Positions 4,373 through 17,686 of a stretch of DNA of 64,000 bases are shown here, piece after piece (the first letter of the stretch is position 1; each line of letters starts with the position of its first letter). The position numbers were made by a program, and so were the translations under genes. Source of the stretch: Amedibacillus dolichus DSM 3991 (lineage in GTDB: Bacteria > Bacillota_I > Bacilli_A > Erysipelotrichales > Erysipelotrichaceae); assembly GCF_000154285.1 (NCBI RefSeq), contig NZ_DS483475.1, positions 124,001 through 188,000 on the forward strand, given 5' to 3'. The notes beneath the pieces were generated by a model that was not told where the DNA came from, did not search any database, and saw only the letters and a list, made by a program, of their open reading frames with translations.

Positions 4373-4526
4373 AAAAAAATCCAGAGGAAGAGATCTTTCC
4401 CTGTATGAACAGGTGGGTGATCTGTGTGCATTTTTAGGATCCCTGCGCGTAGCAAGTTTTCACACCAAAGCACAACGTCCGATCTCCCGTATCTCTAAGT
4501 GTAGGAAAAATTTATATCCTCTGGAC
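4373..4526 (-). ncRNA. ssrS: 6S RNA (RNA polymerase regulator)
   Basis: A rod-shaped RNA of about 154 nt. The closing stem CCAGAGGA/TCCTCTGG (4524-4517 with 4388-4381) is followed by T7 and doubles as terminator. Inside it is a large bubble containing a small 3' hairpin CCTGT-TCAT-ACAGG, then GGGAGATC/GATCACCC and TGTGC/GCACA stems. This open-promoter mimic is the hallmark of 6S RNA, which binds the housekeeping RNA polymerase. It has its own promoter: extended -10 TGTTATACT (TATACT at 4538-4533). The neighbourhood supports the call: Bacillus subtilis also has a 6S gene next to aspS. It is shorter than the usual 180-200 nt, so identity should be confirmed with a covariance model. Confidence 0.75.
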
Positions 4527-4721
4527 AGTTATAGTATAACACGTAGAAACTAAAATAATACTCTTGACTTTATAAAATTTTTTGCTTCATCTCGCTATCC
4601 GTTAGCTGCACCTGGCAACCAAGCGGTATTCTTAAAAGTTTCCCTTCATAAAGCATGGAAATTCTTACCTATATGAATCAATATTTTGTATTTTCTCTAC
4701 CTTTTAAAGCGCCGCAAGTAT
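4527..4721. other. Spacer between 6S RNA and aspS
   Basis: Apart from the 6S promoter, I see no supported gene. A 28-codon minus-strand frame (4656-4570) is present but has only a weak ribosome binding site. Confidence 0.5.
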
Positions 4722-7828: not shown

Positions 7829-8040
7829 ATATAAAAAAACGCCCTCACGATAAGGACGTTAAAAACGCGGTGCCACCTTACTTCACTTATTAAGTGCTCT
7901 TTTTTCGTTAACGCCGAGATACGATTATCCATTTCCTGATAATTCCTCATAAGTGTCAATTTCTTATCTTACATAAGAGCTTTCACCACACGCCCTCTCT
8001 CTACGATGCTTGCATAAGAAACTTTCTTAATCTTAGGACT
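7829..8040 (-). promoter_or_regulatory. T-box riboswitch leader, histidine-type, for hisS-aspS
   Basis: The conserved T-box AAGGTGGCACCGCG (7879-7866) sits directly before a terminator stem (ACGTCC with GGGCGT, then T7). Further upstream are the usual stem I elements, including AGAGAGAGG and GTGGTGAAAG. In the expected specifier loop (TTGACACTTATGAG) the triplet CAC (7955-7953) is a His codon. Uncharged tRNA-His would stabilise the antiterminator and switch on hisS and aspS. Specifier placement is inferred from the sequence alone. Confidence 0.9.
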
Positions 8041-8046
8041 ATGTAT

Positions 8047-11336: not shown

Positions 11337-11555
11337 AAATAAAAAACGCCCTCAGCTACTCTAAGGACGTAAATTCACGCGGTACCACCTTAGTTCATCG
11401 TAAACGATGCACTCAAATCTCTTAACGCGAGAAAACGAATCCACGATCAGCTCCTTAACAAGTTCGATTCCTTCCTTTGTTCGATTTTCACCAACCATCG
11501 ACTCTCTTTTTCAAATTTCAGAATTTACTACTTTAATTCATCGCTTTTCTATCGA
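11337..11555 (-). promoter_or_regulatory. T-box riboswitch leader, leucine-type, for leuS
   Basis: Conserved T-box AAGGTGGTACCGCG (11391-11378), followed by the terminator ACGTCC...GGGCGTTTTTT (11370-11341) just before the leuS ribosome binding site. Upstream are AAAGAGAGTCG and GGTTGGTGAAAA, which fit stem I. The candidate specifier, in ATCGAACTTGTTAAGG, is CTT (11462-11460), a Leu codon. Uncharged tRNA-Leu would permit read-through. Confidence 0.9.
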
Positions 11556-15207: not shown

Positions 15208-15236
15208 TTGCAAATCACAGAAAAATGATGTATCCT
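15208..15236 (+). promoter_or_regulatory. Promoter of the aromatic leader and aroEK-aroF
   Basis: TTGCAA (15208-15213), 17-base spacer, TATCCT (15231-15236). Transcription would begin near 15243, leaving the leader-peptide ribosome binding site very close to the 5' end. Confidence 0.65.
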
Positions 15237-15256
15237 ATGAGCATAGGAGTGATAGA

Positions 15257-15298
15257 ATGTTTTTGATTCCAAATCATTTTTACTTTTACTTTCAATAG
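15257..15298 (+). CDS. Aromatic-rich leader peptide (attenuator peptide)
   Basis: A 13-residue peptide, MFLIPNHFYFYFQ, with four Phe and two Tyr, five of them clustered at residues 8-12 (F-Y-F-Y-F). AGGAG lies seven bases before the ATG. The stop codon's last base is the first base of a strong hairpin (15298-15344), and an intrinsic terminator follows at 15353-15388, before aroE-aroK. This is the arrangement of pheA/trp-type attenuation leaders: scarcity of charged tRNA-Phe or tRNA-Tyr would stall the ribosome and prevent termination. The composition, site and order are seen; the mechanism is inferred. Confidence 0.8.
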   Translation: MFLIPNHFYFYFQ

Positions 15299-15344
15299 CC
15301 CGGAAAACACCATTGTAAAATACCTTGGTTTTTGTTTTCTGGGC
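15298..15344 (+). promoter_or_regulatory. Leader hairpin 1:2 of the aromatic attenuator
   Basis: GCCCGGAAAACA (15298-15309) pairs with TGTTTTCTGGGC (15333-15344), 12 pairs with one G-T, plus an inner CCA/TGG. A ribosome stalled on the Phe/Tyr codons would cover its left arm. The freed GGGCAT (15341-15346) could then compete for the terminator's right arm ATGCTT. Confidence 0.65.
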
Positions 15345-15352
15345 ATTTTCTT

Positions 15353-15388
15353 AAAGGCATGAACATTCGTTGATGCTTTTTCTTTTTT
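15353..15388 (+). terminator. Attenuator terminator upstream of aroE-aroK
   Basis: AAAGGCAT (15353-15360) pairs with ATGCTTTT (15373-15380), followed by a T-rich run to 15388. It lies 17 bases before the aroE-aroK start, so its only sensible role is premature termination. Its loop contains AACATTC (15362-15368), complementary to GAATGTT at the leader-peptide start codon. Confidence 0.75.
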
Positions 15389-15404
15389 ACGAAGGGAGAA
15401 TTTT

Positions 15405-16673
15405 ATGAATTACGGACTTATAGGAGAAAAGCTCGGACATAGTTTTTCAAAAGAAATACACGAAGCCTTAGCCGATTACAGCTATGAGCTTTGTCCTTTG
15501 AATCCAAAAGAATTTCATGCATTCATGCAGGCACGACAATTCAAAGCTATCAATGTAACCATTCCATATAAAAAAGAGGTACTTCCTTATTTGGACGAGA
15601 TTGATACAGCCGCCAAAACGATTGGTGCAGTGAATACCATCGTCCATAAAAACGGAAAGCTAAAAGGCTATAACACCGACTATGACGGCTTTCGTTATAT
15701 GCTCATAAAGCACCATATTAAGGTTTCTGATAAAAAGGTTCTCATCTTAGGCAACGGCGGAGCAAGTGCTGCTGTTCAGGCTGTCATAAAAGATGCAGAT
15801 GCAAAAGAGCTCATTGTAGTTTCCCCTAGTGCTAAAAACGGAGCTATCAGCTTTGCGGAAGTTTATGCTAAACATCGAGATGTGCAAATTATTATCAACA
15901 CCTCTCCGAAAGGAATGTATCCGCATGTCGATGAAGCTCCTATTGGTTTACAGGATTTTCCAAGTTGTGAGGCAGTTCTTGATATCATTTACAATCCGCT
16001 TGTAACAAGGCTTGGTCTGCAAGCAAAAAAATACGGTATTCCGTTTGTCGGCGGTTTAGAAATGTTAGTAGCTCAAGCTGTTTATGCAGTCAATTATTTC
16101 CTTGATGCCAGCTTCACAAATGCGGATATCGATCGTTTGTATCAGAAGATTTTGTGGGAGAAAATAAACATTGTTCTCATCGGTATGCCAAGTGCCGGGA
16201 AAAGTTCTATTGCCAAAGAGCTATCCAAGGCAATGCAGATGACCTATCTTGACAGTGATGAAGAAATCGTGAAAACCTATCGACAAAGCATTCCTGAAAT
16301 TTTTACACAGGAAGGCGAAGCAGGCTTTCGTCAAAAGGAACAAGCTATAATTGCTTCTATCGCCTTGCGAAATCATTGTGTTCTTGCGACCGGTGGTGGT
16401 GCAATACTTAACGAAGCTAATATGAATGCCTTAGCTCAAAACGGCATTATCGTATTTCTTGATCGCAATATCGAAAAGCTTACCTGCGATGCTACACGCC
16501 CATTATCCAAGGATCCGCAAACACTTAAACAAATGTATCGACAGCGGCTTCCTCTCTATCAGCGCTATGCAATGATAACAATCAAAAATAACGAGGATCT
16601 TGCGACCTGCGTAAAAGCAATTCGCACACAGCTAAAACAATGGATAACAAGCAGAAAGGACGAAAATATATGA
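15405..16673 (+). CDS. aroE: Shikimate dehydrogenase-shikimate kinase fusion (AroE-AroK)
   Basis: A 422-residue bifunctional enzyme. Residues 1 to about 255 are AroE: shikimate-binding GHSFSK near the start, catalytic Lys in NVTIPYKKEV, then GAVNTI, NTDYDGF, and NADP-binding GNGGASAAV. From about 258 on it is shikimate kinase: Walker A GMPSAGKSS, the acidic D-S-D in YLDSDEEIV, FRQKEQ, and GGGA. It would carry out two steps, dehydroshikimate to shikimate to shikimate-3-phosphate. GAAGGGAG precedes the ATG. The stop overlaps the DAHP synthase start (ATGA), so the two are translationally coupled. Confidence 0.95.
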   Translation: MNYGLIGEKLGHSFSKEIHEALADYSYELCPLNPKEFHAFMQARQFKAINVTIPYKKEVLPYLDEIDTAAKTIGAVNTIVHKNGKLKGYNTDYDGFRYMLIKHHIKVSDKKVLILGNGGASAAVQAVIKDADAKELIVVSPSAKNGAISFAEVYAKHRDVQIIINTSPKGMYPHVDEAPIGLQDFPSCEAVLDIIYNPLVTRLGLQAKKYGIPFVGGLEMLVAQAVYAVNYFLDASFTNADIDRLYQKILWEKINIVLIGMPSAGKSSIAKELSKAMQMTYLDSDEEIVKTYRQSIPEIFTQEGEAGFRQKEQAIIASIALRNHCVLATGGGAILNEANMNALAQNGIIVFLDRNIEKLTCDATRPLSKDPQTLKQMYRQRLPLYQRYAMITIKNNEDLATCVKAIRTQLKQWITSRKDENI

Positions 16674-17686
16674 TTATTACATTAAAAAAAGATGCTCCAA
16701 AGCAAGAGGTTGATAAGCTTATTCACAGTTTTGAAGAAAAAGGATTATCGGTAACTATGATCAACGGAGATAATTACAATGTCTTTGGTTTGGTCGGTGA
16801 TACCAGTAAGCTTGATGAAAAGCTAATACGTGCGAATCATTTTGTTCAAAATGTAACTCGTATTGCAGCTCCCTATAAAAAAGCCAATCGTTTATTCCAC
16901 CCAGAAGATAGTATCATTGATGTTCAAGGCATTAAGATTGGCGGTCATGAAAAAATCGTAGTTATCGGAGGTCCTTGCTCCGTAGAGGGAGAAGAACAGG
17001 TCATGGAAATTGCTAAGGAAGTAAAACAAGCCGGTGGTGATATGCTTCGCGGAGGTGCGTATAAACCAAGAACAAGCCCTTATGCTTTCCAAGGATTAGG
17101 CAGTAAGGGCATTGCATATCTTGAGCATGCAAAGGAACGCTATCATTTGCCGATCGTTTCAGAACTGATGAGCAGCGATAAGCTAGAAGAATTTGTTGAG
17201 CATGTCGATGTCATTCAAATCGGTGCCCGAAATATGCAAAACTTCGATTTATTAAAAGCCGTGGGTAAAACAAACAAACCGATTTTATTAAAACGAGGCT
17301 TATCCAATACGATTGAGGAATGGATCATGGCAGCCGAATACATTATGTCCGAAGGAAATGAAAATGTTATATTTTGTGAACGTGGCATTCGTACCTTTGA
17401 GCCATACACAAGAAATACATTAGATTTAAGCGTCATTCCGATTATCAAAGAAAAAACACATCTTCCGATTATTATTGACCCAAGTCATGCAACAGGCGAT
17501 TGGCGTTTAGTAGAGTCCGCTTCTTTGGCCGCTATTGCTGCCGGTGCCGATGGATTGATTATCGAAGTACATAACGATCCGGAAAATGCATGGAGCGATG
17601 GAGCGCAATCCCTAAAGCCGCAGCGTTTCCAAGAGGTCATTGAGAAAGGTCGTAAAATCGCCCATGTGATCGGACGAGAAATGTAA
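16670..17686 (+). CDS. aroF: 3-deoxy-7-phosphoheptulonate synthase (DAHP synthase)
   Basis: 338 residues; the entry step of the shikimate pathway, joining PEP and erythrose-4-phosphate. An N-terminal ferredoxin-like regulatory domain (about 1-68) precedes the barrel, as in the Thermotoga-type enzyme, where it confers Tyr/Phe feedback inhibition. Active-site blocks: GGPCSVEG, GGAYKPRTSPYAFQGLG, IGARNMQNF, LLKRG and DPSHATG. The start at 16670 overlaps the preceding stop by 4 bases. The gene should be under both the transcriptional leader and allosteric control by the same amino acids. Confidence 0.95.
   Translation: MIITLKKDAPKQEVDKLIHSFEEKGLSVTMINGDNYNVFGLVGDTSKLDEKLIRANHFVQNVTRIAAPYKKANRLFHPEDSIIDVQGIKIGGHEKIVVIGGPCSVEGEEQVMEIAKEVKQAGGDMLRGGAYKPRTSPYAFQGLGSKGIAYLEHAKERYHLPIVSELMSSDKLEEFVEHVDVIQIGARNMQNFDLLKAVGKTNKPILLKRGLSNTIEEWIMAAEYIMSEGNENVIFCERGIRTFEPYTRNTLDLSVIPIIKEKTHLPIIIDPSHATGDWRLVESASLAAIAAGADGLIIEVHNDPENAWSDGAQSLKPQRFQEVIEKGRKIAHVIGREM

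Follow-up and report, generated by a model that had tools for sequence, protein, structure and literature searches.

A probable Phe/Tyr leader-peptide attenuator in front of the aroE-aroK and DAHP synthase genes

The DNA analysed (a stretch of 64 kb, referred to as the window, with its own numbering) carries on the forward (+) strand a gene for a fused shikimate dehydrogenase-shikimate kinase (aroE-aroK, 15405-16673; Pfam PF08501 and PF01202) and a DAHP synthase gene of the aroF type (16670-17686; PF00793 and PF18152), with a type I dehydroquinase gene as their divergent neighbour. Upstream of aroE-aroK, on the same strand, lies a sigma-70-type promoter (15208-15236) with the -35 box TTGCAA (15208-15213), a 17-nt spacer and the -10 box TATCCT (15231-15236). 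A Shine-Dalgarno sequence (AGGAGTGAT, 15245-15253) and a short ORF (15257-15298) follow, the latter coding for the 13-residue peptide MFLIPNHFYFYFQ. From the ATG at 15257 the codons read ATG TTT TTG ATT CCA AAT CAT TTT TAC TTT TAC TTT CAA TAG; six of them are aromatic, and the putative regulatory codons are the run TTT TAC TTT TAC TTT (Phe Tyr Phe Tyr Phe, 15278-15292). The leader thus holds a translatable short ORF with its own Shine-Dalgarno sequence, rich in codons for the end products of the pathway.

Two hairpins are predicted from folding and covariation downstream of these codons. The first, H2 (15298-15344, + strand), starts at the stop codon, the G of TAG being its first paired base, and has an apical stem and a U-rich bulge on its 3' side (15330-15333); its folding energy is -22.4 kcal/mol (z -5.2). 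After a spacer of 8 nt (15345-15352) comes an intrinsic terminator, H3 (15353-15388, + strand), with a stem-loop at 15353-15380 and the U-tract TTTTTCTTTTTT reaching to 15388 (-10.8 kcal/mol, z -4.1). The U-tract is followed by GAAGGGAG and then by the aroE start codon at 15405. The entire leader folds with z -4.9. A consensus scanner passed over the promoter, which gave 8/12 matches, and also H3, whose loop is too long for it, yet both recur in relatives. In the whole window, on both strands, the MFLIPNHFYFYFQ ORF is the only one that starts with ATG, codes for 8-25 residues and has at least five Phe or Tyr among the final seven, and the chance expectation for such ORFs, from 20 windows simulated under a first-order Markov model, is 0.2 on average. 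An earlier note on this DNA had named the promoter, the ribosome binding site, the 13-residue peptide with six aromatic codons, the hairpin at the stop codon and the terminator; all were found in place, which confirms the leader as a real element.

The same layout was found upstream of aroE-aroK in many genera of the family, with the peptides MHTTTYETFYFYFR, MHLATSSVFYFYFQ, MHVAVSFYFIFS, MMKQTSSKFYFYFR, MKLHHSFFYCFTFR, MNNSRQYYYYFK, MKNLISVSYFMFTFK and others. The N-terminal halves of the homologous peptides are unrelated, whereas their aromatic C-termini are conserved, as are the stop, H2 and H3; in virtually all of the peptides the aromatic cluster is C-terminal and normally ends one codon before the stop. 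Promoters of the form TTGC(A/T)(A/T)...TATnnT with equal distance between the boxes recur in many relatives, and the Shine-Dalgarno variant (A)GGAGTGAT recurs in leaders L002, L004, L005, L008 and L038. In eight other leaders (L010, L015, L022, L023, L028, L047, L049 and L109) the ATG lies only about 6-9 nt past the -10 box and there is no Shine-Dalgarno sequence; leaderless transcripts seem to be the templates for several of these peptides. One close aroE-aroK relative (L003, genome G014) has neither leader peptide nor terminator upstream.

A covariance model of the leader matched 59 of 273 genomes of the family (E<=0.1), the weakest of these matches being chance. Among a class sample of 395 genomes no true match fell outside the family, and two outside candidates (L229 and L230) were rejected as terminators that have no aro gene. 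A genome-wide search for runs of Phe/Tyr codons was uninformative (892 matches versus 1488 for the reversed control). In all, 53 leaders from about 24 genera were tabulated, plus about 20 more in a sister clade, and the tabulated leaders always lie upstream of aroE-aroK, aroB or aroF.

In most genomes of the main clade the covariance model also revealed a second leader. In the genome studied here it precedes aroB-aroC (G000:C5:132031-132142, L142) and is Tyr-rich, with a TTG start and the peptide MANKKMYYFS. In genus g22 the second leader precedes a separate DAHP synthase gene, and where aroE lies within a longer aro operon the leader is found in front of aroB, the first gene. The leaders differ in codon content, those of aroB having Tyr runs (YFYYYE, YYYYR) and those of aroE having FYFYF. 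The target genes (aroE-aroK and DAHP synthase; aroB-aroC) serve the biosynthesis of the very amino acids that are encoded, and the pair of leaders suggests that the two halves of the pathway may be under separate, Phe-weighted and Tyr-weighted, control.

Both hairpins are preserved by compensatory change. Of the cells in H2 and H3, 95% hold standard pairs in an alignment of 14 aroE leaders, and two-sided changes numbered 32 as against 8.9 in shuffles, phylogeny being ignored; within H2 such changes affect 6 of 9 pairs. When cognate duplexes were compared with swapped ones in 27 genus-by-type representatives of the main clade, the arms of H2 covaried with z -13 and those of H3 with z -9.9 (permutation statistics that ignore phylogeny). 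An intrinsic terminator between the ORF and the first gene is therefore conserved along with H2. Alignment across related genomes had been proposed in the earlier note as a check on its idea of a Phe/Tyr attenuator in front of aroE-aroK and aroF; with the aromatic codons kept and the hairpins covarying, it came out strongly in favour of that idea.

The position of H2 is tied to the aromatic codons. The first base pair of H2 follows the end of the final aromatic codon at a median distance of 5.5 nt (4-8 nt in 42 of 46 leaders). Where the stop is shifted (two codons later in L004, one earlier in L005) this distance is kept and the distance from stop to H2 is not, which fits stalling on hungry codons and not arrest at the stop. 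Given the known footprint of the ribosome, H2 is just free when the last aromatic codon is in the A site, and its 5' arm is covered when the ribosome is at the stop. The spacer between H2 and H3 is also short, 0-8 nt in 44 of 46 leaders (median 4.5 nt), compared with 35-50 nt in the sister clade.

Taken together, the conserved leaders, their aromatic codons, the spacing from codons to H2, the compensatory changes in H2 and H3 and the second leader make Phe/Tyr attenuation very probable, and we put at roughly 85% the reading that the element is a ribosome-stalling leader-peptide transcription attenuator sensing charged tRNA-Phe and tRNA-Tyr. The leader RNA would be transcribed and a ribosome would translate MFLIPNHFYFYFQ. 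With enough Phe and Tyr, the ribosome at the stop would cover the 5' arm of H2, H3 would form and transcription would end near 15388. If either amino acid is short, the ribosome would stall on the FYFYF codons just before H2, which could then close, favouring read-through into aroE-aroK-aroF. If there is no translation, both hairpins would form, again giving termination. The ORF, its codons, H2, H3, the spacing, the target genes and the covariation are drawn from sequence and its comparison; the stalling itself we infer, and that closing of H2 means antitermination is an analogy drawn from the sister clade, in which the alternative pairings covary.

In this sister clade (around genus g32) the leader precedes aroB, and its ORF often codes for FYFYFR and closes with AGATAG. 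Just past the stop lies a hairpin 1:2, followed by segment 3 (GGCATTATCT) and a terminator with a loop complementary to segment 3. All four pairings covary among 25 leaders (1:2, z -6.9; 2:3, z -5.4; segment 3 with the terminator loop, z -4.7; terminator stem, z -9.0), which supports a classical four-segment switch with a mutually exclusive antiterminator. With the ribosome at the stop, segment 1 would be masked, 2 and 3 would pair and the terminator would form; with a stalled ribosome 1:2 would form, and the freed segment 3 would open the terminator. By this logic the closing of the hairpin after the stop would mean antitermination there. Judged by eye, the stop context AGATAG (for instance in L171, L206 and L219) resembles segment 2 and is able to pair with segment 3, a pairing that would give termination in the absence of a ribosome.

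No such antiterminator was detected among the 27 main-clade representatives, in which no third covarying pairing accompanies H2 and H3. The segments tested were the upstream region, the N-terminal half, the codon region, the arms and loop of H2, the spacer, the arms and loop of H3 and the downstream region, in a covariation test that is blind to pairing between two invariant segments. The best p-values for the upstream, coding, H2-arm, H2-loop and post-terminator regions against H3 were about 0.04-0.06 in 27 tests per group, which is not convincing. Two pairings suggested in the earlier note are not conserved, namely GAATGTT with AACATTC in the H3 loop (N-terminal region versus 5' arm and loop of H3, z +1.1) and GGGCAT with ATGCTT (d versus f, z +2.0, the wrong direction); its suspicion that a clean 2:3 antiterminator is missing was correct for the main clade. 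H2 and H3 are mutually compatible and share no strand, and in constrained folds H3 usually forms whether the ribosome is placed on the first aromatic codon or on the stop. As judged from the sequences, the main clade thus appears not to use the classical form with a mutually exclusive antiterminator. Readthrough or frameshifting beyond the stop codon was considered and rejected, as by eye it is not conserved and L002 and L010 have an in-frame TGA directly after the stop.

How H2 would disable H3, with no exclusive pairing detectable, is consequently the least certain step of the proposed mechanism. Tentatively, we favour occlusion: the closed H2, which lies just 0-8 nt from the A-tract of the terminator and has the stalled ribosome at its base, may block H3 by proximity, with no need for an exclusive antiterminator. 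Zipping of H3 in the RNA exit channel would be hindered, possibly aided in aroE-type leaders by CUUU before H2 capturing AAAG of H3, a closure that is missing in the aroB leaders and in L159 and L162.

A base-paired antiterminator within the same attenuator appears rather doubtful to us. Here CUUU, made up of the last Phe codon and the wobble C in front of it, would lengthen H2 by pairing with the AAAG of the H3 base, which would deprive the terminator of its A-tract. A C does precede the last TTT in 16 of 24 aroE-, aroF- and operon-type leaders, as against 6.2 expected (P 1e-5), and it is kept although the amino acid that it belongs to varies (Tyr, Ile, Thr, Val). Moreover, among the FYFYF and FYFxF leaders of these types the two with T instead (L159 and L162) also do not have AAAG or a close equivalent, and the extension is present in some predicted folds (L002, L040). 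On the other hand, it amounts to 4 pairs only and is missing in aroB leaders despite the same H2 and H3. Leaders of the sister clade, in which the terminator carries no AAAG, often have this C as well, and the codon region covaries with the spacer plus 5' arm of H3 at just z -1.7 (p 0.06).

Unlikely, in our judgement, is a scheme in which the apical hairpin of H2 and the following UNUUUU are a regulated pause site or the terminator itself, H3 being a back-up. Most leaders of the main clade do have an apical stem with a U-run behind it, but the stems are weak (4-9 pairs; 4 in the leader of the window), the two ribosome positions leave them unchanged, and stem and U-run are missing in genera g2 and g30. 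We give still less weight to a TnaC-like arrest peptide whose C-terminal aromatic motif would respond to free Phe/Tyr by stalling the ribosome at the stop, in place of stalling on hungry codons. Such a peptide would account for aromatics that always adjoin the stop and for the aromatic residue that most leaders have at position -2, frequently with R, K, Q or E after it; yet position -3 is free to vary (Y, I, T, V), the spacing to H2 follows the aromatic codons when the stop moves, and Tyr runs in aroB leaders next to FYFYF in aroE leaders are what would be expected for codon sensing. That chance should have placed a short Phe/Tyr-rich ORF in T-rich DNA between genes, ahead of an ordinary terminator, deserves next to no credence, for although the region is AT-rich and FYFYF is encoded by the simple sequence TTTTAC, chance is contradicted by the family-wide conservation, the paralogue before aroB and the covariation of the hairpins.

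Phe/Tyr attenuation by a stalled ribosome has its textbook counterparts in the E. coli pheA and pheST (pheL, pheM) and trp leaders, in which a 2:3 antiterminator shares a strand with the 3:4 terminator. These are alike in the short Phe-rich ORF with a Shine-Dalgarno sequence, the intrinsic terminator before biosynthetic genes and the switch by ribosome position, but here H2 lies past the stop and shares no strand with H3, and a stalled ribosome would permit, not mask, the first helix. Closest by description is uORFC-13-1 (PMC8632094), whose reported occurrence is confined to Acholeplasma and environmental sequences and in which a uORF with one or more Phe codons stands upstream of aroF. It likewise has a promoter, an RBS, Phe codons, an extra hairpin, an adjacent intrinsic terminator and a DAHP synthase target, whereas the present leaders, compared with that description, have FYFYF clusters, occur at several loci (aroE-K, aroB-aroC, aroF) and keep H2 in a fixed position.

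Leader-peptide attenuators of his genes are on record for Erysipelotrichales, Peptostreptococcaceae and the Bacillus cereus group (PMC9413887) and for bacilli (PMC2965389). They share with the present leader a low-GC Gram-positive host and a short peptide that directly precedes the attenuator structure, but differ in their His codons, their his genes and the terminator/antiterminator alternatives reported (PMC9413887, PMC2965389). For the ilv-leu leader peptide of S. aureus, also in a Firmicute, a freed GAAUGG was proposed to pair with the poly-U of the terminator, whose stem-loop is not broken up in the antiterminated fold put forward there; its codons are for Ile/Leu, however, and no element like the freed GAAUGG was seen in the present leader (PMC5794164). 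With the his, ilv and Acholeplasma aroF precedents, leader-peptide attenuation in Firmicutes is not new, and the novelty implied in the earlier note was too strong. A literature search covering few subscription journals found no paper on the present aro leader regulon.

The comparison points to a Phe/Tyr leader-peptide regulon of shikimate genes that spans a family of Gram-positives, and the genome studied here uses T-boxes for tRNA synthetases (leuS, hisS). For the same operon there appear to be two designs, a classical four-segment switch and one with two compatible hairpins only, and pairing them makes control of a terminator by a ribosome, without an exclusive antiterminator, directly testable. 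If occlusion is true, that design would have arisen beside, or from, the classical version that the sister clade still uses.

At 15208-15404 there was no match to the T-box model (RF00230), in agreement with the earlier note, and Rfam gave chance-level matches only, none of which was to an amino-acid leader family. Elsewhere in the window two T-box leaders were found, at 11360-11550 (-) and 7849-8043 (-), before leuS and before hisS-aspS, and a 6S RNA was matched at 4374-4530 (-) with 50 bits.
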